Source: a virus
Length of the DNA stretch: 27,173 nucleotides
Strand: one strand, 5' to 3'
IMG/VR virus record: IMGVR_UViG_3300036045_000055
Location: 1 to 27,173 of that record
Shown: positions 1,896 to 20,418 of the stretch, in pieces
How positions within the stretch are numbered: the first letter of the stretch is position 1
How the letters are laid out: each line of letters opens with the position of its first letter
The notes under the pieces: model-generated
What the model was told of the DNA's origin: nothing
The model's input: only the letters and a program-made list of their open reading frames with translations
The model's database searches: none
Program-made: the position numbers and the translations under genes

Positions 1896-2333
1896 ATGCG
1901 GTACAGCACCAAGGTCACCCGGCGGTACCTGGGCCAGGCCGCCCGTGAACGCGCCCAGCAGATCGAAGCCGCCCGCCAGGGCATCCCGGTCAACGCCTAC
2001 CTGCGCATGCTGCATGTCGCCGCCTGCACCGGCGAGCTGCCGCACTACGACCCCGATACCGGGGCGCTGCGAGGCACGGCCGACCACATCGATCCGAAGG
2101 AACGCACGAACATTCTGCTGTACCTGGTCGACAAGGCGCTGCCGAACCTCCAGCGCGTCGCCCCGCCGCCGGAGGAAAACGTCACGCCGCAGGACCTTGA
2201 TACCCTCGCTCCCGCGGACGTGGCCGCCATGACCACTGACCAACTGACCGCTCTTGTGGTGGCCGGAAAGGACATCCGTGACGCTGCCTACTCCAGCTCA
2301 GCTGCTGATCCAAAGCGAGCTGGCCCGGCGTGA
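1896..2333 (+). CDS. Probable terminase small subunit
   Basis: This 145-residue acidic/helical protein ends inside the large terminase gene (56-nt overlap). Position, size and overlap are what is expected of the DNA-recognition subunit, which binds the packaging start and hands DNA to the large subunit. The N-terminus is basic (KVTRRYLGQAARERAQQIEAARQG) and resembles a helical DNA-binding segment, but no classic helix-turn-helix is obvious. A middle helix (NILLYLVDKALPNLQRV) could mediate oligomer formation. The start ATG has only a weak ribosome site and is preceded by a GC hairpin. The assignment rests mostly on position; an unrelated small regulatory protein is possible. Confidence 0.6.
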   Translation: MRYSTKVTRRYLGQAARERAQQIEAARQGIPVNAYLRMLHVAACTGELPHYDPDTGALRGTADHIDPKERTNILLYLVDKALPNLQRVAPPPEENVTPQDLDTLAPADVAAMTTDQLTALVVAGKDIRDAAYSSSAADPKRAGPA

Positions 2334-3918
2334 GCTGGCCCGGCGGGAGTACCTGCCGTTCGTCAGGCTGATGCACGAACACCTGACCGGCGGGGCACAG
2401 GAGCTGGTGGTCACGTCGTTTCAGCAGCACCTCGCCGCGGTGTGCGAATACGCCATCCGCGAGTTGCTGGCGGGCCGGGAGCCGCGGATCATCGTTGAAG
2501 CCCCGCCGCGGCACGGGAAGTCCATGTTCGTCAGCAACTACCTGGCGCCGTGGCTGTACCTGCAAGACCCGAGCCTGTTCGTCATCCACACCACCTACAA
2601 CCAGGCGTACGCGAACGACCTCGGCAAGCTCGTGCGCGAGGTGATGTTCAGCCCGCTCTACGCGCAGTTGAACCCGAAAGCGGCCCCCGATCCCAACACC
2701 GCCGCCGTCAACCGCATCGACACGGTGTCGCGCGGTGAGTACCATTCGACCGGCATGGCCGGTCCGCTGACCGGTCTCGGCGGTCATCTGATGATTCTCG
2801 ATGACCCGGTGAAAAACGCCGACGAAGCCGATTCCCCCGCTGAAATGGAGCGGCAGTGGGAGTGGTACACACGTGTGTTCCGGCAGCGTGCGATGCCGCG
2901 CAGCGGCATCTTCATCGTGCTCACCCGGTGGGGCTCCAACGACGTGGCTGGACGGGTGCTCGAAACCGCAGCCGCCAATCCGAACGCCGATCAATGGCAG
3001 GTATTCAAGTACGAGGCCATTTGCACCGACCCCGCCAATGACCCCTTGCGTCGGCCGGAGGGGGCGGCGCTCGATCCGGTGCGGTATCCGCTTCCGGCGC
3101 TGCAACGGCTGAAAGCCAGCATCAGCCCGCGGGCGTGGAGCGCGCAGTTCCAGCAGAATCCCATCCCTGAGTCGGGCGGATTCTTCGACATGAAAGAGCT
3201 GGATGCGGTCATCAAGCCCGTCGCCAGCATTCCGCCGACGGACAAGCTCACCATCTACATCACCGTCGACTTCGCTATCGGCGAAAAAGAGCACAACGAC
3301 TACACGGTCGTGTGGGCGTTCGGTGTGGACGAGGACGACAACGTGTGGTTCCTGCCGGACGCCAAGCGTTTCCGCAAGGCGGACGGAACGGTGATCGACG
3401 TGATGCTCGACATGGCAGGGGCCCTCAACGCCCGCGAGTTGATCGTCGAGGACGGCCACATTTTCCGTGCTTTGCGGGACCTGCTGAAACAACGCATGCG
3501 GGAGCGGAAACGGTACTTCTCGCTCACCAGCCCATACCCGACGAAGGACAAGACCAGTCGAGCGGTCCCATTACGTGCCAGAATCCAGCAGAAAAAAGTT
3601 TTCTTTCCCGACTGTCCGTTCGTGCGCGACGTGTTCGTTCACGAAGCGGCGAGTTTCGGCGGCCGGAAGACCACGGTTCACGACGACACCATAGACGCTG
3701 CGGCGCTCGGTGTTGGCCAGTTGACACGGCTCATGCGCGGAAGCCCTGACGCCGGCCCCGCGTCACACAGCCCGTTCAAGTCAGCGGAGCCGGGGGCCGA
3801 GGGGTTGACCTGGGACGAGTTGAAAGCCCGGACCCGGCCGGCCGCCCGCGCGTCGATCCGCAAGTCCGCCGGGACGCTGGTGCGATGCCCTCGCCACTTG
3901 AACGGCCGGGCGAGATAG
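2278..3918 (+). CDS. terL: Terminase large subunit (packaging ATPase/nuclease)
   Basis: This is the motor that pumps phage DNA into the procapsid through the portal and cuts it. With the GTG start at 2278 (GAAAGGA site 5-6 bases upstream, preferred over a TTG at 2254) it has 546 residues, normal for the family. The N-terminal ATPase has Walker A APPRHGKS (75-82), Walker B LMILDD (171-176) and the coupling motif LTRW (215-218). The C-terminal RNase H-like nuclease shows the acidic residues expected: VDFAIGEKEHND (D331), VEDGHIF (E391/D392) and HDDTIDAAALG (D469, D470, D473). All catalytic motifs look intact. It overlaps the probable small subunit by 56 nt. Confidence 0.97.
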   Translation: MTLPTPAQLLIQSELARRELARREYLPFVRLMHEHLTGGAQELVVTSFQQHLAAVCEYAIRELLAGREPRIIVEAPPRHGKSMFVSNYLAPWLYLQDPSLFVIHTTYNQAYANDLGKLVREVMFSPLYAQLNPKAAPDPNTAAVNRIDTVSRGEYHSTGMAGPLTGLGGHLMILDDPVKNADEADSPAEMERQWEWYTRVFRQRAMPRSGIFIVLTRWGSNDVAGRVLETAAANPNADQWQVFKYEAICTDPANDPLRRPEGAALDPVRYPLPALQRLKASISPRAWSAQFQQNPIPESGGFFDMKELDAVIKPVASIPPTDKLTIYITVDFAIGEKEHNDYTVVWAFGVDEDDNVWFLPDAKRFRKADGTVIDVMLDMAGALNARELIVEDGHIFRALRDLLKQRMRERKRYFSLTSPYPTKDKTSRAVPLRARIQQKKVFFPDCPFVRDVFVHEAASFGGRKTTVHDDTIDAAALGVGQLTRLMRGSPDAGPASHSPFKSAEPGAEGLTWDELKARTRPAARASIRKSAGTLVRCPRHLNGRAR

Positions 3919-5608: not shown

Positions 5609-7906
5609 ATGCCGAACCGGAAACTCTCGTCGCTCGCCCTGGCAACCGGCCCCGTTCAGCTGGCAGATCAGTTCCTCGTCACCCGCGCCGGAGAGTCTCG
5701 GCGGGTGACGGGGGCCGAGTTCCGGCTCGACAATCTGCTGTCGGCTGCCGGGGCCAACACCACGACGCGCGACCTGAAAACCAGGTTCGATGAGGTCTAC
5801 AACGTCATGGACTTCGGCGCCGCAGGCACGGGCCTGTCGACGCCGCTGTCCGCCGGCGAAGCCGCCGCGTTCAACACGGCGTACAGCGCCTACGGTGCCC
5901 AGGGTGCATACGCGATCGTGGCAGGTGATGAGCGCGACTACGCGGCAATTCAGTGCGCGTTGTGGAAGGCGGCGAACACGGGGAAGCCGGTGTATATCCC
6001 GGCGGGAAGTTACCGGATCAACAAGCCGCTGGTGCTGACGTGGACGGCGACGCCGATCACGGGGCAGCCGACCTACCCGAAGATTTCTCGCATCTTCGGC
6101 GACGGCCACACCACGTTGATGGAGTTCTACGGCATCGCCGCCGGTCGCGGATGTTTGGAACTGCTGGGGACCGACAACGGCAACGCGGTCAATATGGGCA
6201 TCGACAATTTCACCATCCGCCAGGATGCCACGTGCAGCGTGGCGTCGTGGTGTATGCGCTTGGGTGATGCCAAGGAGGTGTTCAGCGCCAAGCGCGTCCG
6301 CTTCGAGGGCGCGAATGGGGTACGGTTGAAAACCGGATCGATCACGAGTTACGCCAACCTCTGCACCAGTTTCGAGATCTGTACCTTCACACCAAACTAC
6401 GGTCTTCGGTGGGGGCCAAACTCTACGACTTCGGTCAGCGCGGTCGACCATGAGACGGTCGCGCCGCCGAATGATACGTGGTGCGATGCGGTGAAGTTCA
6501 CTTCGTGCCTGTTCGGTGGTCGGGTTCGCAATCGCGCCTATTCGTCGCACTTCGACCAATGTCTGTTCTACTGTGCGGCCGATCGTCCAGCGCCGTACAA
6601 TGTGGCACTGCATCACACCTACGGCGCGCTGGCGATGACCTCGTGCTACTTCGAGGACTACCATACCGCTGTCTTCGTCGACCCCGAGTGGTACTGCCAG
6701 ACGATCACACTGAACAACGTGCTGATCGGCGGTTCGCCGATCTATGGTGCGACGTACGGAATCCGTGCGCGCGGGAACGGCTCTCTGTTAAATGGTGGAA
6801 TCAGTCACTTGACGCTCATTGGCTGCCCCTTGGCCACAGTAGCGCACAGCGCGCACACCCTTCAATTCGACGGCACCCACGGAACGGTAATAGACTGTTT
6901 CAACAAAGACGGCGCCGGAAACCCGATCACCATCAACGCAATAAACGGCGCGTTGGTGCTACAGATCGACAAGGGAAATATCACTTATCATGGTGGCGTC
7001 ACGACACGTGCCGGGATCGAGCGCCTTCCATCTGTTGCGGGGTCGATTTATGACAACTTCGGAAATTTCAGCAACGCCATCAATGCGACCTACTCCATCA
7101 ACTTCCTCAGCGATGGCGCTGTCGGAACCATCACCGCGTACTCATCGACGTTTGCTGGCGACGCTACCATCAGAAACGGTGTCTACCTTGGCAACGGGGC
7201 GGCTAATGCCGACTTGATGCTCGGTCAGGGTGGTGGTTTCAACGTCAGAATAAAAAACGGGCGTGTGCGCGTCGGCAGTGTCGCGCCGGCAGATGATGGC
7301 GTCGGTGCGCTTCAGCTTGAAGGGTTGATGACGCTCCGGCCTAACACTCCCGGCGGAACGGTAGACGGATCGTTGTGGCACGATTCTTTGACCGCAGCCC
7401 TACGCGTTCAGATGAATGGGTTCACGCAGGCGATGAGTGCGTCGCCAGTGGATCAGAATAGTATCTTCACTCTCACGGTGACCAACACGACGACTGAAAC
7501 TCTGGTTGCGGGGAGTTACTACCCAGCGAACTTTTTCAAGGCCCGCAAGACAGTCCGTGTTCGGATTCGTGGATCAATGAACTCCAATGGCTCCGGAACG
7601 CTCAGACTCCGTGTCAAAATCGCTGGCGTGACGCGGTTGGACAAGACCATCCCCGCTGTAGATGTATCAACAAACGCCGGATGGTTGGTCGATGTCGACG
7701 TGTGTTGCCGCACCGCCGGAGTTACTGGCACCCTCGCTATCGCTGGGATGTGCTTCTACGACGACAAGACACTAGCACTCGGAGCCTCGGTCCCAACGGT
7801 TGATACCACTGTTCTGGTTGGTGTGGAATTGACAGCGGAGTGGAGTGTGGCGTCCGGCAACCTCTCGTTCAGCGCGACCAACCACCATCCGGAGGTCTTG
7901 CACTAA
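5609..7906 (+). CDS. Tailspike/tail fibre with pectate-lyase-like beta-helix
   Basis: ATG follows GAAGGG. The N-terminus (1-60; LADQFLVTRAGESRRVTGAEF) resembles phage particle-binding segments. The hallmark of the pectate lyase 3/tailspike fold follows: VYNVMDFGAAG (63-73) and AAIQCALWKAANTGKPVYIPAG (112-133), leading into a right-handed beta-helix of roughly 450 residues. About 35 residues separate the two hallmark parts, longer than the usual tight GDGxxDDT turn. The last ~150 residues (starting near DQNSIFTLTV) look like a beta-sandwich tip. The product likely binds and perhaps cleaves surface polysaccharide; catalytic residues cannot be assigned by eye. GC content falls to about 54 % over 6901-7140 by hand count, below its neighbours, hinting at horizontal origin of the tip. 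Confidence 0.88.
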   Translation: MPNRKLSSLALATGPVQLADQFLVTRAGESRRVTGAEFRLDNLLSAAGANTTTRDLKTRFDEVYNVMDFGAAGTGLSTPLSAGEAAAFNTAYSAYGAQGAYAIVAGDERDYAAIQCALWKAANTGKPVYIPAGSYRINKPLVLTWTATPITGQPTYPKISRIFGDGHTTLMEFYGIAAGRGCLELLGTDNGNAVNMGIDNFTIRQDATCSVASWCMRLGDAKEVFSAKRVRFEGANGVRLKTGSITSYANLCTSFEICTFTPNYGLRWGPNSTTSVSAVDHETVAPPNDTWCDAVKFTSCLFGGRVRNRAYSSHFDQCLFYCAADRPAPYNVALHHTYGALAMTSCYFEDYHTAVFVDPEWYCQTITLNNVLIGGSPIYGATYGIRARGNGSLLNGGISHLTLIGCPLATVAHSAHTLQFDGTHGTVIDCFNKDGAGNPITINAINGALVLQIDKGNITYHGGVTTRAGIERLPSVAGSIYDNFGNFSNAINATYSINFLSDGAVGTITAYSSTFAGDATIRNGVYLGNGAANADLMLGQGGGFNVRIKNGRVRVGSVAPADDGVGALQLEGLMTLRPNTPGGTVDGSLWHDSLTAALRVQMNGFTQAMSASPVDQNSIFTLTVTNTTTETLVAGSYYPANFFKARKTVRVRIRGSMNSNGSGTLRLRVKIAGVTRLDKTIPAVDVSTNAGWLVDVDVCCRTAGVTGTLAIAGMCFYDDKTLALGASVPTVDTTVLVGVELTAEWSVASGNLSFSATNHHPEVLH

Positions 7907-8676
7907 TGCGCGGCCTCGACCTCGGTCTTGGGTTGACGCCGCGCGGACTGTTGTCGGGCGGGGGCGTCCTGCCGCAGACCTCCACGTACTCAGACCAGCA
8001 GGCGATCGCCGCGCCGCATGCGAGCCTGTTCCCCGGTGGCGCGGCCACGGATTTTTCGTTCGGTGCGTGGTTCAAGATCATCGAGCGACTGGACCAGTAC
8101 GTGACGTTTTTCTGTATGCAGAAAACGTCGAATATCGGCGAAAACGGCAGCTATTTCTGGTTCGGTTACGACAGCGCCGCTGGCGGCGGATCGCGCGGTC
8201 TCGCGGTCTACGGCAACAACGGCACGCACTCGTACGACCTGCTGCCCGCCACCGGCACCTGGTTCCATGCGTCTGTGACCAAGCAGGGGAACACCGTTCG
8301 CGCGTACCTGAACGGCATTCTCTGCGACTGGGATGGCGCCGCGCCTGACACCAATTTCACGGCGGACATCGGAAACGCTGCGTACGACGAAATCAACCGC
8401 GCGACCATCGCGCGGGAACTGGACGTTGGCGACGGGGACAAGACGCGGATCGCCGTGCGCGCAGCGTGGTTCACCGAAGGTCGGTTGCTCGACGCGCAGA
8501 TCGCAGCGATCATGCAGTACAGCGACCCGTGGAACTACGATTTTGGGGCACGCACGTTTGCGTGGCCGCTGGTCGGCGGCAACCTATCTGGCCGCGACCC
8601 AAACGGGGCCGCATCGAACCTGACCGGCACGGTGTCGTCTCACGCCTCGTCGCCGGCCGGCATAATCTTGCCCTAG
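7906..8676 (+). CDS. LamG/concanavalin-like domain virion protein
   Basis: The ATG at 7906 shares one base with the tailspike stop (TAATG), and GGAGGT lies 9 bases upstream. The 256-residue protein starts with a Gly/Leu-rich segment (RGLDLGLGLTPRGLL) and then has a LamG-type jelly roll: FSFGAWFKI (50-58), GLAVYGN, TWFHASVTKQGNTVRAYLNGIL (the W-H...yvNG hallmark, about 118-139) and a closing AAWFTEGRLLDAQIAAIM. Such folds bind glycans. Tight coupling to the tailspike suggests it is a second receptor-binding or decoration component. A second LamG protein lies at 18556-20418. Confidence 0.83.
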   Translation: MRGLDLGLGLTPRGLLSGGGVLPQTSTYSDQQAIAAPHASLFPGGAATDFSFGAWFKIIERLDQYVTFFCMQKTSNIGENGSYFWFGYDSAAGGGSRGLAVYGNNGTHSYDLLPATGTWFHASVTKQGNTVRAYLNGILCDWDGAAPDTNFTADIGNAAYDEINRATIARELDVGDGDKTRIAVRAAWFTEGRLLDAQIAAIMQYSDPWNYDFGARTFAWPLVGGNLSGRDPNGAASNLTGTVSSHASSPAGIILP

Positions 8677-8702: not shown

Positions 8703-9209
8703 ATGGACCCCGCGCTCAACCAACACATCAACGCCGCCCGCAAGCTGCGACCGGTGATCCAGTCCGTCAGCGCGTTGCTTGCGTTGGCTGATCAGCTCGA
8801 AGACTTCGATCGCAAACTCTCGGTGGCGAGGGCACAGTTGGCCGAGGTCGAGACGGCGCGCGCCGCTGCGGAGGCCGCAGCCCATGCGGCTCGTGTCGCA
8901 GCCGATGAGGTGCGCACCGCCGCTGCCGAAGAAGCCAAGGCTACCGTCGCGGCCGGCAAGGCCGCGGCCGGCATCGTGCAGAACGATGCAGCACGGTATC
9001 TGGCCGAGGCCGAGGCGAAGGCCGGGGCGTTGGTCGCCGACGCGGTGAACAAGCGGCGGGAGCTGGAGGCCCTCAATGCGAAGCTGGCGAACACGGCGAC
9101 CGAGTTGACTGAGGGGCTGAGGGCCAAGCGGACCGAAGCCGTTGCGCTCGACAAGCGCATCGCCGACGCCCGCGCGACGCTGCGCCGCTTTGCCGAAGGA
9201 CAGCTATGA
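8703..9209 (+). CDS. Ala-rich coiled-coil protein
   Basis: AAAGGA sits 5 bases before the ATG. Nearly all of the 168 residues (about 15-165) are predicted helical with Ala/Glu/Lys heptads and no membrane segment, signal peptide or cysteine. The composition would suit a fibrous virion part, a chaperone for the neighbouring adhesins, or a trimerisation stalk. It overlaps the next gene by 4 nt (ATGA). The function is unknown. Confidence 0.78.
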   Translation: MDPALNQHINAARKLRPVIQSVSALLALADQLEDFDRKLSVARAQLAEVETARAAAEAAAHAARVAADEVRTAAAEEAKATVAAGKAAAGIVQNDAARYLAEAEAKAGALVADAVNKRRELEALNAKLANTATELTEGLRAKRTEAVALDKRIADARATLRRFAEGQL

Positions 9210-9625
9210 GCAAGGGCAACACCACTGAGAACGACCTGGTGCGGCACCTGTTCAATGCTGTGGCGATGCCCTCCTACGGTGCGATCCTGTACTTGTCGCT
9301 GCACACCGCCGATCCCGGCGAGGCGGGCGCGCAGAACACTAGCGAGGCCGCGTATCCGGACTACGCCCGCGTGGCGATCACGCGCGACGGAACCGGATGG
9401 TCCGTTGTCGGCCCCACGGCGACGTTGAACACCGAGGCGACGTTCCCCGAGTGCAATGCGAGTTTCGGCCTGGGCACTGAAATCCTCACGCACATCGCCA
9501 TCGGCACAGCCGCCAGCGGCGCCGGGCAAATCCTGTACAGCGGTGCCCTGACCGCTCCGGTCATCGTGTCGGCGCTCGACACCCCGCGCATTCCGGTCGG
9601 CGCTCTCACGGTCACGGAGGACTGA
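9206..9625 (+). CDS. Conserved phage virion protein of the LHTADPGE type
   Basis: The 139-residue product carries LSLHTADPGEAG (30-41) followed by YARVAITRDGTGW, and ends with a TALxxPxxV-like strand. This combination is a pattern I recognise from many phage structural regions, where it is usually annotated as a tail-fibre-like or unnamed virion protein; no enzymatic role is known to me. Its start overlaps the coiled-coil gene stop (ATGA). Cluster position among adhesins supports a virion-surface role. Confidence 0.82.
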   Translation: MSKGNTTENDLVRHLFNAVAMPSYGAILYLSLHTADPGEAGAQNTSEAAYPDYARVAITRDGTGWSVVGPTATLNTEATFPECNASFGLGTEILTHIAIGTAASGAGQILYSGALTAPVIVSALDTPRIPVGALTVTED

Positions 9626-11221: not shown

Positions 11222-13336
11222 ATGACCGATCCGGTCGGAAATGATCCGGTGCCACAGGCCCCGACGAGTGACGGCGCTGCTCCGCAGCCTTCGGCCGCGG
11301 AGAAAATCCGTGACTTTGAACAGTGGCTCATCACGCCCGATCCCATCACAGGGATTCTTGAACGTGCGCAGATGCTGCGGGATTGGATGAACGATGTGTT
11401 GATGCAAGACGACGAGGATACCGTCGTCACGCACCACACGTTGCGGTACATGCAGGCGGACTTGGCCATGCTCACCGCCACCGATCCGCGGGCGAACTTC
11501 AAGCCCAAGCCGAAATACTGGGCGCCGCCGGGACAGCCGAACATCGCGCCCCCGACGTACATCCGATTCGCCGAAACCACCGAGCTACTGGTCAATTTCT
11601 TTGTTCAGAATGGAAATCTGCGCGACTCGGCAAACGCCGCGGCTCGGGCGGCTAAGACCACCCGGGCGGGGTGGGTCAAGCTGATTTGGCGCGACGACCC
11701 GGAGCGCACGCCTACTGGCGCACAGATTCACGATGAGAAATTGAACGCCATGTTCAAGTTCCGGTACCTACGGGACCGGTTCAAGGCGGGCGAGTTCGGC
11801 GAGGACAGCGCAGACTACACCAGCATGCAGGAGTTGGACCGATACCTGCGGGGTGAGTTGGTGACGCAGTATCGTCAGCAGAAAACCCCTGCGAGCGCCG
11901 TGGTGGTGGAGGGGCCGGAGGGGGTTGATGTTGTCGCGTCCATCGACCCCATCGATAAGCGAGTGATGGAACTGTTGCAGGGGGCCGAATTCACCGATGC
12001 CGAGCTGGACGACGTTCCCCGGTACCTGGGTTTCGACTTCGACCCCATCAACATCGAAGACATCCGCGTGGATTGGGGGTCGATCAACAATCCCGAGTTC
12101 TACCATCTGAGTTCCCGCATCGCCCACCGGACCCGCAAGACAAAAGCCGAGGTGATCGGAGCCTACAAGCTGACGCCGGAACAGCAGGCCATGTTGCCTG
12201 CGACAGACGACGAGCCTCACCAGGACCGGGTGCTGGATGAACAGCGCCAGGCTGAACAGGCCGGCGATCAGATCGAACGCCCGCAGATCAACGATGGAAA
12301 GTTCGACGTGTGGGAGCTGTGGGACCGCGCCGACCGCACGGTGTACGTGTTCATTCCGGGCACGGATTTCTGGCTGACCACGTTCACTCCGCGAAACACC
12401 GGACCCCAGTGGTATCCGTTTTTCTACCTGTGGTTCAATGAACTGGACGGATGGTTCTACGCGCCGTCGGACGCGGAACTGTTGATGCCGCTGCAAGACG
12501 AGTTCAACTCGACGCGCTCGCATGCCCGCGAGTATCGCAAAGCGGCGCTGCCTCGGCTGCTCATCGCCAAGGGGGTGATGTCGGGGCCGGAAATCGACAA
12601 GTTCGAGAACTCGCATCCGTATCAGGTGATCGAAGTCGAAAAACCAGACGAAATCCAGTCGTCGCTGTTCAAGTTCGACGGTGTTGATTACAATCCGGCG
12701 CTGGTGAGCACCGCTGACGTGCTGATGGAGATGCAGATGATGGCCGGCATGCCGGCGTCGGGGCTCGGGGGCGTGGGCAGCGCGAAGCTGGCGACCGAGG
12801 TGTCGTTCGCCGGCCAGCAACTCAAGTCACAGCAGGATCGGAAAATGTATTTGTTCCGCCGGTTCTTGTCGAGAATCGTAGTGGAAATGGCCCATATCAT
12901 TGTTCGTGCCTTGCCGCGCGAGAACGCTGTTCAGATCGCAGGCCCGGGGATCGTGTTCCCGCAGTCGCTCGAAGAACGTGAGGGATTGTTGGCGGAGCTG
13001 GTGCTGGACGTGTCGGTCAGCCCGGCCGGCAAACCGGACGTGGATTCCGAGCTGAACCACCTGATGATGGTGTCGCAGATCATGCGAGAACACGGCATGT
13101 TGATGCCCCCGCAGTTCCTGGCCTCCATGCTCGGAGACATAACCGGACAGGTGCTCGATTTCAGCGGCATCCAGCAGGACCCGGCGCTGGCGGCGGGCGG
13201 CGGGCCGCGACCGCCACGGCCGAGCGAAGGGCTGCGCACCGGCGGGCCGAGTGGCCCGGCTCCGGGGACCCCCAACGGAGGGCTGCCAGGAATGCCCCGA
13301 CCATCGTCACTCCCAGGAGGCGCACCGCGCCGTTGA
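11222..13336 (+). CDS. Portal protein (P22/podovirus type)
   Basis: The 704-residue product fits P22-type portals, which form a dodecameric ring at the capsid vertex through which DNA is packed and ejected. Visible signs are the N-terminal helical wing (ERAQMLRDWMNDV, 47-59), KTTRAGWVKLIWRDDPER (145-162), the DVWELWDRADRTVYVF segment (362-377), the conserved YPFFYLWFNELDGWFYAPSDAELLMPLQDEFN block (398-429; typical YP...G.s...ll..Q.e.N) and a long Met/Gln-rich stem helix region (500-560). Residues 657-704 form a Gly/Pro-rich disordered tail. It is followed by scaffold and capsid genes, the usual order. The ribosome site before 11222 is weak. Confidence 0.88.
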   Translation: MTDPVGNDPVPQAPTSDGAAPQPSAAEKIRDFEQWLITPDPITGILERAQMLRDWMNDVLMQDDEDTVVTHHTLRYMQADLAMLTATDPRANFKPKPKYWAPPGQPNIAPPTYIRFAETTELLVNFFVQNGNLRDSANAAARAAKTTRAGWVKLIWRDDPERTPTGAQIHDEKLNAMFKFRYLRDRFKAGEFGEDSADYTSMQELDRYLRGELVTQYRQQKTPASAVVVEGPEGVDVVASIDPIDKRVMELLQGAEFTDAELDDVPRYLGFDFDPINIEDIRVDWGSINNPEFYHLSSRIAHRTRKTKAEVIGAYKLTPEQQAMLPATDDEPHQDRVLDEQRQAEQAGDQIERPQINDGKFDVWELWDRADRTVYVFIPGTDFWLTTFTPRNTGPQWYPFFYLWFNELDGWFYAPSDAELLMPLQDEFNSTRSHAREYRKAALPRLLIAKGVMSGPEIDKFENSHPYQVIEVEKPDEIQSSLFKFDGVDYNPALVSTADVLMEMQMMAGMPASGLGGVGSAKLATEVSFAGQQLKSQQDRKMYLFRRFLSRIVVEMAHIIVRALPRENAVQIAGPGIVFPQSLEEREGLLAELVLDVSVSPAGKPDVDSELNHLMMVSQIMREHGMLMPPQFLASMLGDITGQVLDFSGIQQDPALAAGGGPRPPRPSEGLRTGGPSGPAPGTPNGGLPGMPRPSSLPGGAPRR

Positions 13337-13358
13337 ACTCCAACCCCCAGGATGTATC

Positions 13359-14513
13359 ATGCCACCAGACGTAAACGAAGACTCCGCGTCGTCAGCGGAG
13401 GATCAGCGCATCGAGTCCGAGTCGCTGGCGGACGACACCGCAAACCTGTCTCCAGAGCACGAGGCCTACCTCAAGAACCCGAGGATGGCGGAGGCCTTGA
13501 AGACGCTGACCGGCGGAGGCACCAAAGACGACACGTCGTCCGAGGGTGCGAAACAGGATCAGCCTGACAACCAGACCGAAGACGAGAAGACGGATCAGAC
13601 GACGGGCCAGGAATCGGAATCTTCCGAGGACGAGGCGGCGACAGCCGACGAGGACTCTGAACCCGGTGTGGCAGCTGAACGTGCTCCCGCCGCGAAGGCC
13701 ACGGCGAAAGCCGGGACCGATGCGGACGACGAGGATGACAGTTACCCCGACGAAGCGGAAACGGCGGCGTTCTCGCCCAATGCGCAACGGCGAATCAGAC
13801 AACTGGTCGCCCAGCGCAAGAGAGCCGAGTCCCAGTTGGCCGAAGCCCTCGAAGATGCGCAGTACCGGAGAGGCCTCAAGACGACGTTGAAAAACGTCGG
13901 AATCACCCCCGAAGCGTTCGACGAATGGACGCAGCTCGGGATTGTGGTTCAGACCGATCCGGCGGCAGCAGCAAAGGTACTCGGTCGTTTGGCCGAAACC
14001 TTGGGCTACACCCCGGCGAAAGCGGAGCCGGATAGGCTCGACGATGACCTCAAGGCGCTGGTTGATGATGACCAGATGACTGAGGCCGCGGCGAAGCGAA
14101 TCCAGGCCACCCGCAAACAGCCCTCCCGGGCTGCTGATCCGACACAACAACCTCGTACGGCCGTCGCGCCGGCGGAGGTTCCGTCACTCGTCAAGAAACC
14201 AGAGTCCGGAGCACAAATCATGGCGCGGCTCGATGCCGAGTTCGCCACGAAGTTCGGGACGGACTGGGAGGGCCTGGCCAAGGAGGTGAACGCGGAACTC
14301 GCCAACTATCGCGGCACGCCGCTCCACTTGTGGGAGCGCACGATCCGTGATGCCGTGGCCCGCGTCGCTCAGCGCAAGCCGAGCACTGTGTCGAAGACGC
14401 CAGACCCGGTATCACGAGGCTCCGGAGGTCGGAGTGTCGTGGCCAAGCCGGGAAACAAACCGCCGACCCGCGAAAGCATCGTGAGCAATCTGAGCTTCGT
14501 GAAGGGTCGGTAA
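13359..14513 (+). CDS. Probable scaffolding protein
   Basis: Start ATG 13359 follows AGGA; an in-frame extension upstream overlaps the portal and is not convincing. The 384-residue protein has a very acidic, disordered N-terminal third (1-135, runs of Glu/Asp), a central coiled coil (about 143-175, RRIRQLVAQRKRAESQLAEALEDAQ), an Ala-rich middle and a basic C-terminus (KPGNKPPTRESIVSNLSFVKGR region). An acidic helical protein of this size between portal and major capsid gene is characteristic of scaffolds, which guide capsid assembly and then leave. Assignment is by position and composition. Confidence 0.78.
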   Translation: MPPDVNEDSASSAEDQRIESESLADDTANLSPEHEAYLKNPRMAEALKTLTGGGTKDDTSSEGAKQDQPDNQTEDEKTDQTTGQESESSEDEAATADEDSEPGVAAERAPAAKATAKAGTDADDEDDSYPDEAETAAFSPNAQRRIRQLVAQRKRAESQLAEALEDAQYRRGLKTTLKNVGITPEAFDEWTQLGIVVQTDPAAAAKVLGRLAETLGYTPAKAEPDRLDDDLKALVDDDQMTEAAAKRIQATRKQPSRAADPTQQPRTAVAPAEVPSLVKKPESGAQIMARLDAEFATKFGTDWEGLAKEVNAELANYRGTPLHLWERTIRDAVARVAQRKPSTVSKTPDPVSRGSGGRSVVAKPGNKPPTRESIVSNLSFVKGR

Positions 14514-14531: not shown

Positions 14532-15632
14532 ATGCCATACCCCACCTACCTCTCCCAGGAACAGCTCGCCGAGACGCTGTTCGGTGTCCGCGACTACGTG
14601 GACAATCCCAAGAAACCCCACGTCATTGACCGCGTGCAGATGCCTTTCATGGGCGTCTTGAGCAAAGCGAAGAAAGTTGTGCCGTTCATCCGCAACCAGG
14701 TCGCGGTGAAGTACAAATCCGAAGCCGACGAACTGGAAATGCAAATCTGGTACAACAAGGACCGTCTGCGCTTCCTCGAAATCCGCGAGGGGTTCGACCT
14801 GATCCACAACGGCGTCCAGGTCCACATGGGTGTCGAAGTGTGGCACCAGGAGTTGAAAGACGCTGGCTATGTTGTGAAGCCGAACCAGAGCCGCAGCGCC
14901 AACTTCGCCAAGCGCATGTCGGTCGCCGAAGGCTTGGCGCTGTTCGACACGCTCAAGGAGAAGATGGAATCGGCGATGGACCGCTGGGACATCCTGCTGG
15001 AACAGAAGTTCTTGCACAATGTCTCGGGCAACGCGAACGAACCCGTGGCCTTGACCGACATCGTGACCAAGACCCCGCTGGTCGGTACCTACGGCGGCCG
15101 TAGTCGTGCGAACGAGGACATGCGCAACGGCGCCTTCCTTACCAGCACGGCCGCGACCTTCGAGCGCGATATGACCCGGCTGTTCCGCAATGCGATGCTC
15201 TACAACCGCGGGTTCGAGGGCCTTGGCATCAACGTGATCCTCGCCGCCGGCGGCTGGATCGACCGGTACAACGACAGCGTGCGCGGTTCCGGTGCCGCCT
15301 ACGGCAACAACATGAATCAGCAGCTCAAGGGCAACGGCCCCGTGGACATCGGAATCCCCGATACCGACTGGTCGTTCCTCAAGACGCCGATCGTGCACGT
15401 GCCGCTGATGGACAAGATGGCGCAGCTCACCGGCGATGCGACCTGGAACCGTCGCGCCTACGGCCTCAACACCAAGACCCTGCGCTTCGGCCACGGCCAA
15501 GGCGAGGACAAGGAGCTGACCATCCCGCTCGATTCGATTGATCAGCGCGTGACCCGCATGTCGTTTGACGGGCGGTACATGCTCTACACGAAGAACCCGC
15601 GGGCGCACTTCGTTCACGAGTTCAATTCGTAA
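14532..15632 (+). CDS. Major capsid protein
   Basis: AAGGA precedes the ATG by 5-6 bases. The 366-residue protein follows the scaffold and is closed by a strong terminator, as expected for the most abundant product. It has a helical N-terminus (QEQLAETLFGVRDYVDN), a central helix (AEGLALFDTLKEKMESAMDRWDILLEQKFLH, about 136-166) resembling an HK97-fold spine helix, and a C-terminal beta-rich region (TRMSFDGRYMLYTKNPRAHFVHEF). Length and position support the call; the specific capsid family cannot be told by eye. A minor head protein is the unlikely alternative. Confidence 0.83.
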   Translation: MPYPTYLSQEQLAETLFGVRDYVDNPKKPHVIDRVQMPFMGVLSKAKKVVPFIRNQVAVKYKSEADELEMQIWYNKDRLRFLEIREGFDLIHNGVQVHMGVEVWHQELKDAGYVVKPNQSRSANFAKRMSVAEGLALFDTLKEKMESAMDRWDILLEQKFLHNVSGNANEPVALTDIVTKTPLVGTYGGRSRANEDMRNGAFLTSTAATFERDMTRLFRNAMLYNRGFEGLGINVILAAGGWIDRYNDSVRGSGAAYGNNMNQQLKGNGPVDIGIPDTDWSFLKTPIVHVPLMDKMAQLTGDATWNRRAYGLNTKTLRFGHGQGEDKELTIPLDSIDQRVTRMSFDGRYMLYTKNPRAHFVHEFNS

Positions 15633-15700: not shown

Positions 15701-16291
15701 ATGTCAAAGCTCCGCAAGGTGCTGGTCGAGTTCGTCCGCTCGACTTCCCACGTGCGCCCCGCCGCGCGCTACGAAATCCCCCTCCTGAAACTGGAGGCCG
15801 CTTCGTCTGGCGTTCAGATGAAGATCCACGAAATCCCCAATCCGCGCGAAGACGACTTCGTGACGGTCGACTCGGCGGAGGCCGCCTACCAGCAGCTGAT
15901 TGCCACCTACGGCGCCCAGTCGGTGCACGCCGTCTATCCTTCCATCGTCGGGTTCAAAGCCGACTTCGAAGCTGCCGCTCGCCGTGACGGCGGTTTCCAG
16001 GCAGCCGTTCACACCGCCGAAGGGCCGGGGGACCAGGAAGTCCGCATCCTGGCGCTGCTCGAAACCGTTCCGGGGGTCGGGCCGGAGCTGGCGAAGGCGT
16101 TGCTCGCCGCGGGGTTCGATTCGATCGAAGCCGTGGCCGCCTCCACGCTGAACGAACTCGAAGCCGTGCCGGGCATCGGCCCGGCCACCAGTGAAACCAT
16201 CAAAGCCGGGGCAACACAGCTCGTCTTGTCGTTCACGCGGCCCGCGGCACAGTCGGAACCCACCCAGGTATCGCCGTTCAACGAAGGCTAA
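15701..16291 (+). CDS. Helix-hairpin-helix protein in the head module
   Basis: Start ATG 15701 is preceded by AAGGA. The 196-residue product has an unrecognised N-terminal part (1-100) and, at about 112-172, two tandem helix-hairpin-helix motifs: VPGVGPELAKALLAAGF (123-139) and VPGIGPATSETIKAGA (156-171), joined by SIEAVAASTLNELEA. The h-P-G-h/V-G-P hairpins are classical non-specific DNA-backbone binding elements, as in DNA repair and polymerase subunits. Its place between the capsid and adaptor genes is unexpected for a DNA-repair factor and suggests a head-completion or DNA-contact role. It follows the capsid terminator and is close to the next gene (3 bp). Confidence 0.82.
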   Translation: MSKLRKVLVEFVRSTSHVRPAARYEIPLLKLEAASSGVQMKIHEIPNPREDDFVTVDSAEAAYQQLIATYGAQSVHAVYPSIVGFKADFEAAARRDGGFQAAVHTAEGPGDQEVRILALLETVPGVGPELAKALLAAGFDSIEAVAASTLNELEAVPGIGPATSETIKAGATQLVLSFTRPAAQSEPTQVSPFNEG

Positions 16292-16294
16292 CCC

Positions 16295-17044
16295 ATGCCG
16301 ATCAGTGACCCCGTGTCCGTGAACGACGCGATAACCGACGTGTTGCAACGGGCGGGGTTCACTTCGCAGGGGACCGCCACGTTGACGGCGCAGCCACGCG
16401 CCCGGACCTATCTTCGCCAGGCCATGCGCGAGCTGGTTGGCGAAGCCACCTGGGACGATTTGAAAGCAGACGTTCGCATCCCACTGACGGAGGGCCAGGA
16501 TCGGTACGAGTACCCGGAAGAAACGTACGTTGGCGGCATTCTGGAGGTGAGCGTCGAAGATGATCGGGGGCGCTTCTGGCCAATAGACGGCGGAATCCGC
16601 CGGCACGATCGTATGCCGACGCCCCAGGATACCACTCACCGCGTCGCCACCGGGCGCCCCAACCGGTGGCGGGTCGTCGACAAGGAAATCGAAGTGCTGC
16701 CCGCGCCCACTGCGCAGTACGTGAACCTGGTGATCACGTTCAAACGGAAGCTGCCATCGCTGAACGACGGCGAAGACTTCCTGCCCTTCGAGCCGGAGCT
16801 GTTGATCCAGCGTGCGACGATTCTGATGAAACTGCACTATCAAAAGCCCGGCGGGTCCGATGATGAGCGCTCCTATCGGCGCTACCTGTTGCAGCGTAAG
16901 CGGGCACAGGGAGAGGGCCGGGTCTTCAACGTTGGTGGGCGCAAATCCCACTATGTCACTCGGGACAAGCGGGTACCACGATCGGGAGCCTACGGCGAAG
17001 TCGGCCGTGGGGTGTCGTTCACCGACGGCTGGAACCCGTGGTAG
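16295..17044 (+). CDS. Probable head-tail adaptor (P22 gp4-like)
   Basis: GAAGG lies 7 bases before ATG 16295. The 249-residue protein starts with helical segments (VNDAITDVLQRAGFT; TYLRQAMRELVGEATWDDLKADV), followed by a beta-rich middle and a helical, basic C-terminus (ERSYRRYLLQRKRAQGEG). In P22-type phages the adaptor binds the portal ring and begins the short tail; length, fold impression and place directly before a gp10-like gene fit this. I see no diagnostic motif, so confidence is moderate. The alternative is another head-completion factor. Confidence 0.68.
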   Translation: MPISDPVSVNDAITDVLQRAGFTSQGTATLTAQPRARTYLRQAMRELVGEATWDDLKADVRIPLTEGQDRYEYPEETYVGGILEVSVEDDRGRFWPIDGGIRRHDRMPTPQDTTHRVATGRPNRWRVVDKEIEVLPAPTAQYVNLVITFKRKLPSLNDGEDFLPFEPELLIQRATILMKLHYQKPGGSDDERSYRRYLLQRKRAQGEGRVFNVGGRKSHYVTRDKRVPRSGAYGEVGRGVSFTDGWNPW

Positions 17045-17047
17045 CCC

Positions 17048-18559
17048 ATGCCGGGTACTCCTCTCTACATCCCAAGCAGGGGCGGTGCCCCGGCGCCGTG
17101 CCGCGGAATCGACCAGCGCAGTTTGCAGGCGGGGTCTGATCCGTCGTCAGTGTGGGATGCCGTTGATTGCGATCTGACCGATGCCGGCGACCTCCGCGCG
17201 CGAGACGGATTGGTGCTGCACGCTCAGCTCCCTGCTGGAACACATGGGTTGTACGCCTTGGGCGGTCGACTGCGGGTGGCGGTCCCCGCGGGGCACGGTA
17301 TCCAGGCGGTTCTCCCACCGAACGTTACCGGCGATGTCATCGGAGACACTCCGAACGAGCCGACGGCGCTCAATCGGTACGTCCGGGTGTCTTCGGTCAC
17401 TTCGTGGGGGGCGGGGCCGAGCGGCCGAGGGGCTTTGCCGTACCTGGTTCTTCGGACCGAGGCCGGGCAGTACGTTCATCACTGGGTCCGTGATACTCCG
17501 GCGCTGGTCACTGATCCGATCAAGACGAAAATCGAAACCGGATTCGTCCCGGGGCCCGGTGTCGCCAAGATCGGCCAGAAGCTGTACGCTGTGAATCTGC
17601 TGGATCGAGTCATCCAATATAGCTCAACCGAGTTTGGCCCGGGGGTGTGGTCCGAAACCGCGGCGCCGGACGACGCCGGGTTCCTGAACGTAAACGAACA
17701 CGCGCTGTCCGACACGGAAATAACGGGGCTCACGCTGCACCAGGGGAAACTAGCCGTGGTGTTCGCTCAGTCGATGCAGTTCTGGAACGTTTTCGCCGAT
17801 CCGGCACGGAATTCTTTCGGCTTTGCCCTGAACGGCCCGGGTACGAATGTGTTCGGGTCCTTGAAACCGGTCGTCGGCGACGTGTTTTATTTCTCCGAGG
17901 GCGGATTCCAGTCGTTGGTAACGCAGACGCAGACCGGTGAGCTGCGCGAACAGGGGTTCGGCGCCCCGGTCCGGGGGCTGTCGCAGCCATTCATCACTTT
18001 TCCGAGTGAGGATGTCACTTCCATCTGGTCGCAGGCCCGCGCGCAGTACCTGTGCGCCTTCAACTCCGGCTCCACGTCAACGGTTTTCGCCTACAAATGG
18101 CTGCCTTCGATGGGGATCACAGGATTCACTCGGTGGAATCTGCCAATTCGAGTGGATTATTGGGCGGAATTGGACGGGGTCCTCTACATTCGTTCTGGGG
18201 ATGACGTGTATCGCTTCGCTCCGTCGGCCGAGCACGATGATTCGCCAGAGGGTCCGCGCATTTTCGTGCCATACTTCGAGTCGCAGTTCGTCGACGGCGG
18301 CATCGGCGCCGTCGAGAAGCAGTGGCTCACGTTCGACGCCGAGGCCGAGGGCACCTATGACGTGTTTATGCTGCCAGACCGGCGAAATCGAGCGGTTCGG
18401 GTGCCTGTGGCGTACCGAGTTTCAGGGTCGACCTATGACACGGACACCGTACCCTTCGATGCGCTGCTGCATGCGGTTGCTGTGCGCGTCGAGTTGCGCC
18501 CGCGGGCGGTGATTGGCGGGATTCGCCTGACGTGTTCTGTATTGCCGGGGACTGCATGA
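17048..18559 (+). CDS. Probable DNA stabilisation/tail hub protein (P22 gp10-like propeller)
   Basis: The 503-residue protein is almost entirely short beta blades separated by turns, with repeated propeller-like cues such as HGLYALGGRLRVAVPAG, KIGQKLYAVNLLDRVIQYSSTE, TGLTLHQGKLAVVFAQSMQFWNV and WAELDGVLYIRSGDDVYRF. An N-terminal LQAGSDPSSVWDAVDCDLTDAGDLRARDGL segment looks like the usual start of gp10-type stabilisation proteins, which sit below the gp4 adaptor and keep packaged DNA inside. Its place after the adaptor candidate supports that role. Its stop overlaps the next start (ATGA), indicating coupling. Confidence 0.75.
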   Translation: MPGTPLYIPSRGGAPAPCRGIDQRSLQAGSDPSSVWDAVDCDLTDAGDLRARDGLVLHAQLPAGTHGLYALGGRLRVAVPAGHGIQAVLPPNVTGDVIGDTPNEPTALNRYVRVSSVTSWGAGPSGRGALPYLVLRTEAGQYVHHWVRDTPALVTDPIKTKIETGFVPGPGVAKIGQKLYAVNLLDRVIQYSSTEFGPGVWSETAAPDDAGFLNVNEHALSDTEITGLTLHQGKLAVVFAQSMQFWNVFADPARNSFGFALNGPGTNVFGSLKPVVGDVFYFSEGGFQSLVTQTQTGELREQGFGAPVRGLSQPFITFPSEDVTSIWSQARAQYLCAFNSGSTSTVFAYKWLPSMGITGFTRWNLPIRVDYWAELDGVLYIRSGDDVYRFAPSAEHDDSPEGPRIFVPYFESQFVDGGIGAVEKQWLTFDAEAEGTYDVFMLPDRRNRAVRVPVAYRVSGSTYDTDTVPFDALLHAVAVRVELRPRAVIGGIRLTCSVLPGTA

Positions 18560-20418
18560 CCGAGACCGAGAAACATTCTTTCTCATCTGAGGCGGTCGGC
18601 GCGTCTCGGATGACCCCGTTCGTGAATGCCGCTGCGCCGGAACCGTTCGATGCTGACCAGGTGCTGGTATTCAATCCGAACGCCGGTCGTGTGTTGACAC
18701 TGGCTAGAAACCAAACGACGGGGGCCTTCCAGACGGTTCGGAATCAGCGGTTCTGGGCACCGGCTCCCGCGAACGGAGCGCAATTCGATTCGACGCAATC
18801 GGTGGTGTTCGTCGCACCACGGACCCCCGTAGCCGATGGCCGACTGACGTTGGCATACCCGAGGTCTCTCGCCACCCCGTACGCCGAAGCCACCGATCAA
18901 GCTCTCGGAGCCGCAGCAGCGACGCAGTGGTGCAAAACGGCCCCGCCTCCGCTGACCACCGGGGCCGAGTATCTGTTCCATGCCCGAGCCACCAGCCTGG
19001 TGGTCCGTACCACGGACCTCACCGAAGTCGCCAGCATCAAAACCCCCGATGAGCCGGCGCTCATTTTGCGTGGACAGCCCTATGACCCCCTCCAGCCACA
19101 GAGTGTCGGCGGGGATGTGTGGGTATTCTACCGCAACAAATCCTTCGTCGATTATTACACGTGGACGCCGTATCTGAACGAGCTTCGCTTGGTCGAACGC
19201 CACGACATCCCGCGGTGCAATACGTTCCTTGCGGCTGTCTATGACGGCACGCGCCTGTGCATCGTCTCCCGTACGCGCGTGATCGTCTATGACCCCTCGG
19301 AGGGGGCGGTGGTGTGGCAGCACCATGACCCGAATGGCCGGTTCAGCGGGGTGACGCGGTTCCTGGCCTCGCGGGCGCTCAGTTACGAAGACGGAGCGGA
19401 CGACGATGAGTACCGCGACGCTGTTCAGCGTGCTCGGTTCAACCCGGGCAAAGACCGGATGGTCCGCGACCACTATGTTCTGGCCGATCACTTTTCTCAG
19501 CTGATCCACCTCATCGGATCGGCCGGACCGCCCCACGACCCCGTGACGCGCGGACCGACGCAGCCCTTGATAGCCTACGTCGGTCGCCGGTGGCTGGTGC
19601 TCGACCCCGTGACAGGCCGCCTGGTCACTTCGGGGGACCTGGTGTTCCGGTTCAGAGGGCACGATGTGGCCGAAGGGCTGCACGTAGCCGAGCACATCGA
19701 CGGCGGCGTTGCCGTCGGCGACGTGATCAGCCGTGAGACATCTGCTGGAACCCCGATGCGGTGGGCCGGGACTCCCGCCTGGCGGGAGGACGCGGACAAA
19801 CAGCGTTTCGCGTTCTTCGACGGCTCAACGTTCGCCGACATCAGCCTGCGCAAGCAGGTGTTCCTCACTGGGGCGTTCACGTTCACGGCGTGGGTCCGGT
19901 GCCCGGCTGATACGCCGGACGGCTTCTACCCGATCATCGGCGGGTGGCGTTTCCAGGGGGTGTCGGTCTTTGCGATCAAACGGCAGGGCGGTGCATCGAG
20001 TGCCGGCTGGGCGGACCTGGTGGGCCAATTCGCCTGCCCCGATCTGTTCGATGATCAGTGGCACCACGTAGCCCTTGTACGGTCGGCGTCGGGGGCCGGG
20101 GCTGTCTATGTCGACTCGGTACTCGTCGGGTCGGGGGTGGTCCCAACCTTCGACGCCGAAAACTCCAGCGACTTTCCTACGCTCGGCGGCCCCATGCGCT
20201 TGGGCAGAGGTGGTCCGGGTATCGACTCGCTCTACTTCCGTGGGTGGCTCGGTGATGTGCGAATTTATCAGCTCGAAGCCTCCGCCGGATTCCTCGCTGA
20301 TCTGTTCGCCGCGGGACCCGTGGGCGGTGGTAGCCCGGCTATCACCGATGACGCCCTGCTGCTCGAAGATGGCTTTTTCTTGCTGCTCGAAGACGATTCC
20401 CTCCTTGGCCTGGAGTGA
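18556..20418 (+). CDS. Virion adhesin with C-terminal LamG domain
   Basis: The ATG at 18556 overlaps the preceding stop, with GGGGA upstream. The 620-residue protein has an N-terminal beta-rich region (about 30-400) with propeller-like strands (VWVFYRNKSFVDYYTW, TRLCIVSRTRVIVYDPSEGAVVWQ) and a clear LamG jelly roll (about 417-585): FAFFDGSTFADI, FTFTAWVRCP, QWHHVALVRS (501-510), AVYVDSVLVGS and GWLGDVRIYQLEAS. The last 20 residues are a Leu-Glu-Asp repeat (LLLEDG, LLLEDD). LamG folds bind carbohydrates, so a receptor-binding role is likely; a tail-hub role for the N-terminal part is possible. Confidence 0.83.
   Translation: MTETEKHSFSSEAVGASRMTPFVNAAAPEPFDADQVLVFNPNAGRVLTLARNQTTGAFQTVRNQRFWAPAPANGAQFDSTQSVVFVAPRTPVADGRLTLAYPRSLATPYAEATDQALGAAAATQWCKTAPPPLTTGAEYLFHARATSLVVRTTDLTEVASIKTPDEPALILRGQPYDPLQPQSVGGDVWVFYRNKSFVDYYTWTPYLNELRLVERHDIPRCNTFLAAVYDGTRLCIVSRTRVIVYDPSEGAVVWQHHDPNGRFSGVTRFLASRALSYEDGADDDEYRDAVQRARFNPGKDRMVRDHYVLADHFSQLIHLIGSAGPPHDPVTRGPTQPLIAYVGRRWLVLDPVTGRLVTSGDLVFRFRGHDVAEGLHVAEHIDGGVAVGDVISRETSAGTPMRWAGTPAWREDADKQRFAFFDGSTFADISLRKQVFLTGAFTFTAWVRCPADTPDGFYPIIGGWRFQGVSVFAIKRQGGASSAGWADLVGQFACPDLFDDQWHHVALVRSASGAGAVYVDSVLVGSGVVPTFDAENSSDFPTLGGPMRLGRGGPGIDSLYFRGWLGDVRIYQLEASAGFLADLFAAGPVGGGSPAITDDALLLEDGFFLLLEDDSLLGLE

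Follow-up and report, generated by a model that had tools for sequence, protein, structure and literature searches.

The protein with helix-hairpin-helix (HhH) motifs that is encoded between the capsid and the adaptor gene of an uncultured short-tailed phage is most likely an accessory protein of the head module whose C-terminal module has been swapped. The window, i.e. the whole stretch of DNA analysed here, comprises the 27,173 bases of the virus record with 152 open reading frames (ORFs); the genes around the HhH gene make up the head module of what looks like a podovirus.

The HhH gene in the head module of the window

The features of the head module are compiled in Table 1. The capsid protein has homologues in Microcystis phage Mae-Yong1326-1, where the protein is annotated as capsid, and at the corresponding place in Rhizobium phage RHph_N65, and the gene downstream of the HhH gene matches PF24175; thus, the position between capsid and adaptor genes given in the preliminary description was borne out. 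An AAGGA stretch is found immediately 5' of the ATG of the HhH gene and the adaptor ATG begins 4 nt past its stop codon. A GTG further upstream (15653) is not needed as start, since the orthologue of contig L171 starts with M-S-x-x-R-K at the aligned place. The true start of the putative scaffold ORF is probably near 13359.

Table 1 Features of the head module. Positions are those of the window.
Feature	Position	Strand	Basis or remarks
Terminase RNaseH-like domain (PF17289)	ORF 2254-3918		
Portal protein	11222..13336	+	tblastn to RHph_N65, E 1e-17; alignment with annotated Mae-Yong1326-1 portal
Putative scaffold ORF	13251..14513	+	Position between portal and capsid
Major capsid protein	14532..15632	+	Alignment with Mae-Yong1326-1 capsid and RHph_N65 counterpart; phrog_9953, E 3.5e-4
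HhH-domain protein gene	15701..16291	+	196 aa and stop; ATG start
HhH protein, N-terminal region, aa 1-106	15701..16018	+	aa 1-31 best conserved; without Pfam family
Segment aa 58-84 (AEAAYQQLIATYGAQSVHAVYPS)	15872..15952	+	Collinear with 'ERxRLxxxYGxxxVxxLFPG' stretch of the slot family
(HhH)2 domain, aa 117-178	16049..16234	+	PF14520; AF2/Foldseek/VIA
HhH motif 1, aa 123-138, hairpin GVG	16067..16114	+	VPGVGPELAKALLAAG over aa 123-139
HhH motif 2, aa 156-171, hairpin GIG	16166..16213	+	VPGIGPATSETIKAGA
SU10-type adaptor	16295..17044	+	PF24175 SU10_adaptor, E 1.6e-8
Putative nozzle/tail-tube protein	17048..18559	+	Named by position after adaptor; conserved in L171 and L242

Outside of this region, the terminase and portal genes are set apart by a group of genes resembling those for tail spikes or fibres (pectate-lyase-like, 5609-7906; LamG, 7840-8676; Gp80 fibre, 9206-9625), unlike in RHph_N65, Mae-Yong1326-1 and phiR18, in which both genes are adjacent. 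Concanavalin A-like LamG domains were found in two ORFs, the one within the fibre block (E 4.5e-8) and one after the putative nozzle (18532-20418, E 1.4e-12).

Scans of viral contigs with the HhH protein alone did not reveal a relative, and among phage records none covering at least 80% of the protein was found. Likewise, a profile of the pair of HhH proteins against genome contigs, the window capsid and adaptor against phage records, and single-sequence scans of viral contigs with capsid, portal and terminase gave no relatives. Two IMG/VR contigs, L171 and L242, were reached through portal and capsid scans. They encode full-length orthologues of the HhH protein at the same place (L171:10632-11273, 42% identity; L242:7162-7698, 34% identity). 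The portal and capsid of L171 are 57 and 64% identical to those of the window, the capsid of L242 is 60% identical, and the order capsid, HhH gene, adaptor and putative nozzle is common to all three. The best conserved part of the protein is aa 1-31, with 71% identity to L171, followed by the HhH domain with 49%. The HhH genes of the window and L171 differ at 89, 69 and 117 sites of codon positions 1, 2 and 3, respectively; since the differences are mostly at position 3, the frame is under protein-level constraint.

A small-protein family in the capsid-adaptor slot

Loci of the RHph_N65/Mae-Yong1326-1 group were gathered by scans of IMG/VR with capsid and portal alignments, in three of the four scans as the best 80 of each larger set. 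The 242 loci obtained were scanned with home-made HMMs, and capsid and adaptor matches on one strand were found in 163. The loci are not independent of each other, and it was by their similarity to two seed phages that most of them had been reached. A gene of one small-protein family was located strictly between capsid and adaptor in 149 of these 163 loci and, with looser ORF bounds, in 10 more (159/163). The remaining four are exactly the loci carrying the HhH gene: the window, L242, L171 and L241, the last two being one and the same contig. The family alignment left out 18 loci and the window because the picked ORF was in the wrong frame or absent; L118 was put back with its other ORF and the correct frames of the loci left out were later located by HMM.

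The N-terminal domain of the family has the consensus GGD..NTV....T.PEI..LR.IHG.DAV..I......ER.RL...YG...V..LFPG and is followed by a variable tail. AlphaFold2 modelled one member (L102, alignment of 60 rows) with a mean pLDDT of 86: an N-domain of the order strand-strand-helix-strand-helix (pLDDT 94-98 over residues 1-100), a linker of low confidence, and a C-domain (pLDDT 88-97 over aa 131-170) that resembles Rho-N, SAP and endonuclease VII C-domains with Z of 5-6. Foldseek gave no convincing match of the N-domain in the PDB, which leaves room for a known fold, and four matches with E <= 0.001 in a viral structure library, three of them to uncharacterised phage proteins and one to a nameless entry. 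With its confident N-domain model and variable C-terminal modules, this widespread family (L003:1914-2525 and relatives) has so far been unnamed. In RHph_N65, the gene after the adaptor (L003:3251-5014) is annotated as '6-phosphogluconate dehydrogenase'; a nozzle is expected there and, judged by position, the label looks like a misannotation.

The tails were then compared. Among 62 family representatives, Pfam matches (E up to 0.1) were to Rho_N in 6 and to SAP in 3; phrog_3281 and phrog_10541 were matched by 12 of the 62 each, both via the C-domain where the matched stretch was visible. The name 'endonuclease VII' of phrog_3281 was rejected for the family, because it rests on the SAP-like C-domain. 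None of the other 34 representatives matched a nucleic-acid-binding Pfam family, and an HHH family was matched by none of 96 representatives. At least 7 Lys/Arg in 15 residues were present in 22 of 128 unique tails by a simple count; a SAP regular expression flagged 13 of the 128, at least one of which (L164) is Lys-rich and not SAP. The C-terminal module of the family is, therefore, optional and variable, and its HhH form is found only in the clade of the window. A recognised C-domain is missing from most members, and the core role of the family can, therefore, not be to bind DNA.

Is the HhH protein itself a member? With the family HMM it ranked first of the 152 ORFs of the window (E 0.037), and its score was reached by 10 of 20,000 shuffles of its N-terminus; of the 20,002 sequences in this test (shuffles plus the whole and the N-terminal HhH protein) 17,133 were scored and the rest fell below reporting. 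The L242 orthologue, with 9.7 bits, scored slightly better than the window protein, and the L171 orthologue reached only 0.2 bits. A profile-profile comparison of the whole alignments of HhH proteins and family gave a P of 0.0012 (probability 19%). When the N-terminal regions of the three HhH proteins were compared with the family by hhalign, P was 3e-4 (probability 40%, score 25.8) over 27 columns only, and the match was collinear, with residues 58-84 of the HhH protein against 52-87 of the family. A score of 25.8 was reached neither by 400 column shuffles (maximum 21.3) nor by 56 control segments, for which alignments of four other proteins of these phages (scaffold, capsid, adaptor and nozzle) had been cut up (maximum 13.4). 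The family signatures GGD...NTV and IHG(D/E)xAV, taken from the family consensus, are absent from the window protein, L171 and L242.

Like the hypothetical protein EVC08_003 of RHph_N65 (QIG74315.1; UUJ74523.1 in Mae-Yong1326-1) and its relatives, the HhH protein occupies the slot between the capsid and an SU10-type adaptor and has an N-domain, a linker and a variable C-terminal region, with the collinear YG...V...(F/Y)P segment in common. It differs from them by the missing GGD/NTV and IHG signatures and by its C-terminus, which is (HhH)2 instead of a SAP/HeH, Lys-rich or undomained tail. Taken together, the HhH protein is the positional counterpart and probably a divergent homolog of the slot family, at the edge of what sequence comparison can detect.

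The HhH domain and its possible ligands

HHH_5 (PF14520) matched residues 119-170 of the HhH protein with an E of 8.6e-15 and 55.4 bits (cut-off 27) and was above the cut-off in both orthologues, too (38.4 and 37.4 bits); PF00633 (HHH) matched two stretches. The motif coordinates proposed earlier, 123-139 and 156-171, agree with these matches and are correct. AlphaFold2, run with the alignment of the three sequences, modelled residues 121-170 with block means of pLDDT of 85-92 and residues 1-55 with low confidence (pLDDT below 50). A prediction with the GxG hairpins outside of an HhH fold would have refuted the proposal; AlphaFold2, Foldseek and VIA place them in such a fold. The two tandem motifs are both real, but according to the model they form a single (HhH)2 domain of about aa 114-178 and not two separate domains. 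VIA aligned it with RadA, Hel308/Pol-theta and NusA acidic-repeat (AR) domains at Z of about 9-11 (up to 10.9), mostly over 60-77 residues and with an rmsd of about 1.2-2.5 for the leading rows. The (HhH)2 fold is common to the window protein, the NusA AR domains, the N-terminal domain of RadA/RAD51 and the C-terminal domain of Hel308, whereas the full-length proteins and their contexts are wholly different.

Such matches could point to a protein of DNA replication, repair or recombination that is merely located in a late operon. By sequence, most matches of the HhH domain are indeed to proteins of repair, recombination and transcription; in the PDB, chains of archaeal eL32 head the list, with Rad51/RadA also among the nearest. 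Phage records, too, gave other HhH matches, for the most part to UvrC, DnaE-type polymerase, RadA or ERCC4 proteins. However, no nuclease, polymerase or ATPase domain scored above the Pfam cut-off in the 196 residues, all three phages have the gene between those of capsid and adaptor, and the protein fills an occupied head-module slot with a collinear N-terminal similarity to the family found there. On position, slot-family replacement and lack of a catalytic domain, we rejected a replication/repair protein, which we consider very improbable. A relation to ERCC4/XPF, found by tblastn in Methanobacterium virus Drs3, was dropped (24% identity, E 0.2); in the stretch of Drs3 examined there is no annotated capsid gene beside the matching gene. 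Because the HhH module stands where relatives carry another optional tail, the protein is most likely a modular head-assembly accessory and not a repair enzyme. The earlier interpretation is thus supported in part: the idea of a captured domain with a structural job fits in that the HhH fold is real, each of the three phages has the gene within its head module, and the protein replaces the slot family, some members of which have another nucleic-acid-binding fold (SAP/Rho-N/HeH).

In many proteins, the HhH fold serves to bind nucleic acids. However, the conserved GhG hairpins expected of DNA-binding HhH proteins are not kept among the window (GVG/GIG), L171 (GVT/GIG) and L242 (GVN/GMT); a hairpin glycine is lost in one of the two hairpins of L171 and in both of L242. 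The domain is also acidic, with 2 K+R against 7 D+E in its 63 residues in the window, and 4/6 and 5/7 in L171 and L242, respectively. Loss of hairpin glycines and acidity, like the lack of a recognised C-terminal domain in most relatives, thus speak against DNA as ligand. It is quite possible that place and assembly role are as proposed but that (HhH)2 is a module for binding proteins, by which terminase, scaffold or a host factor would be recruited and no contact with DNA would ever be made. This would fit the top match in Foldseek, the complex of NusA AR1 and lambda N (1u9l), with an E of 0.011 and a TMt of 0.83, and several NusA AR entries in VIA at Z of about 9-10. In passages of PMC6614801, the dual HhH of NusA AR2 is described as binding SuhB with a Kd of 94 nM; as the NusA AR domains show, a dual HhH that is acidic can serve to bind proteins. 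On the other hand, RadA and Hel308/Pol-theta fit the structure equally well, and the SAP/HeH or Lys-rich tails of some relatives in the same slot suit nucleic acid better and speak for DNA. Many DNA-binding HhH proteins are acidic overall and, therefore, net charge is weak evidence on the ligand.

Among the papers listed by full-text searches of the open PMC literature, none dealt with an HhH protein in a phage head module as judged by title and beginning of the abstract, and the HhH passages in the excerpts of PMC9206674 and PMC3025963 concern other genes.

Other proteins encoded after capsid genes and the proposed role

Other phages encode small proteins at a similar place, and the HhH protein may be likened to JBD30 gp39, Mu gp35, lambda gpFI and the SU10 slot protein by position or role, and not as proven homologues. 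FluMu gp35 of Mu-like phages (HI1506 type, PDB 2out; Mu gp35) and JBD30 gp39 (PDB 8rkc) are small and encoded in the capsid-adaptor position, in JBD30 with one more small gene between gp39 and the adaptor. The C-terminus of gp35 is, as we take it, a HeH-like helical module. FluMu_N is common to JBD30 gp39, whose structure is solved, and Mu gp35 (L248:3591-3932, L247:2623-3033), which suggests that the N-domain of Mu gp35 may also bind the capsid. In passages of PMC11915804, a relation of Mu gp35 to the connector is considered possible; the protein is not seen in the virion structure.

The capsid of JBD30 is decorated by gp39, the product of the gene that immediately follows the capsid gene (PMC11445458), and the HhH protein could be a decoration protein as well, with a decorative C-module. 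The JBD30 gp39 PDB record bears the name FluMu_N, and Mu gp35 in the same slot has this domain. Moreover, no separate gene is present between the capsid and the HhH gene in the window, L171 and L242; RHph_N65 has one. Nevertheless, a decoration protein is unlikely, as the slot family has no sequence or profile link to FluMu_N. The N-domains look alike by eye (hairpin, helix, strand), but membership was rejected on the results of hhalign (P 0.28 and 0.45) and HMMs: FluMu_N (PF17891) was not among the Pfam matches of the HhH protein up to E 1 and gave no match in the L171 and L242 records and seven family-type records. The likeness is therefore kept as a positional analogy only.

Lambda gpFI, another small accessory protein, is set beside the HhH protein by description, not by sequence. 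Its gene presumably follows the capsid gene and precedes that of the head-tail joining protein, and gpFI is not known to contain an HhH. It is described in part of PMC4493119 (citing Popovic 2012) as a chaperone that helps the terminase-DNA complex to meet procapsids. SU10 has a gene for an Ig-like protein in the corresponding slot, flanked by those of capsid gp9 and adaptor gp11; where passages of PMC9509320 name the parts of the SU10 virion, this protein is not included. Small nucleic-acid-type helical modules adjoin the capsid gene in Streptococcus phage vB_Sags-UPM1, whose ORF12 is listed in a published table as a HeH/LEM-SAP protein between capsid and connector, and in Halorubrum tailed virus OP630574 (ORF13; HeH/LEM-SAP-Rho_N); they differ from the HhH protein by having SAP/HeH instead of HhH and a different N-terminus. 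The Halorubrum tailed virus locus L010:10347-10667 encodes a Rho_N/HeH-type protein (Rho_N, E 1.1e-6) directly after the capsid gene, and thus the theme of a helical module after the capsid gene extends to archaeal viruses.

In sum, we consider it moderately probable that the HhH protein assists in head assembly, as an accessory protein with an add-on module on a linker, in a podovirus with an adaptor of the SU10 type. Speaking against it are the extent of the N-terminal relation, which is 27 columns, the poor score of L171 alone and the missing GGD and IHG signatures. The N-terminal domain would be the conserved functional part and, because it is the constant part, we place the core function there. 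Given the late head-module place and the analogy with other proteins of the same slot, the protein may dock on the capsid shell or on the portal/adaptor vertex while DNA is being packaged or the head completed. Hanging on a flexible linker, (HhH)2 at the C-terminus would make a second contact, in replacement of the SAP/HeH or Lys-rich tail of some relatives. As its ligand we slightly prefer DNA, either on its way through the portal vertex or located there, to a protein partner. A more specific version, which we put forward tentatively, is that the capsid-adaptor slot of this large podovirus group encodes a modular 'vertex tether', in which a constant domain docking to capsid or portal would be combined with interchangeable DNA-gripping modules. 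By these, the genome would be held or guided at the portal while it is packaged; the modules would be SAP/HeH, a Lys-rich tail or, in the clade of the window, a captured (HhH)2 repair domain.

The slot directly after the capsid gene is, in our general judgement, among the commonest unexplained positions in head modules of tailed phages. A constant domain with exchangeable C-terminal modules in a widespread family makes the role of this slot testable: the constant domain should reveal the docking site, and the swap from SAP/HeH to (HhH)2 should reveal the ligand of the tail. If the ligand is DNA, a repair-type fold would have been reused in head assembly; if it is a protein, the HhH protein would be a phage parallel to the NusA AR domains.
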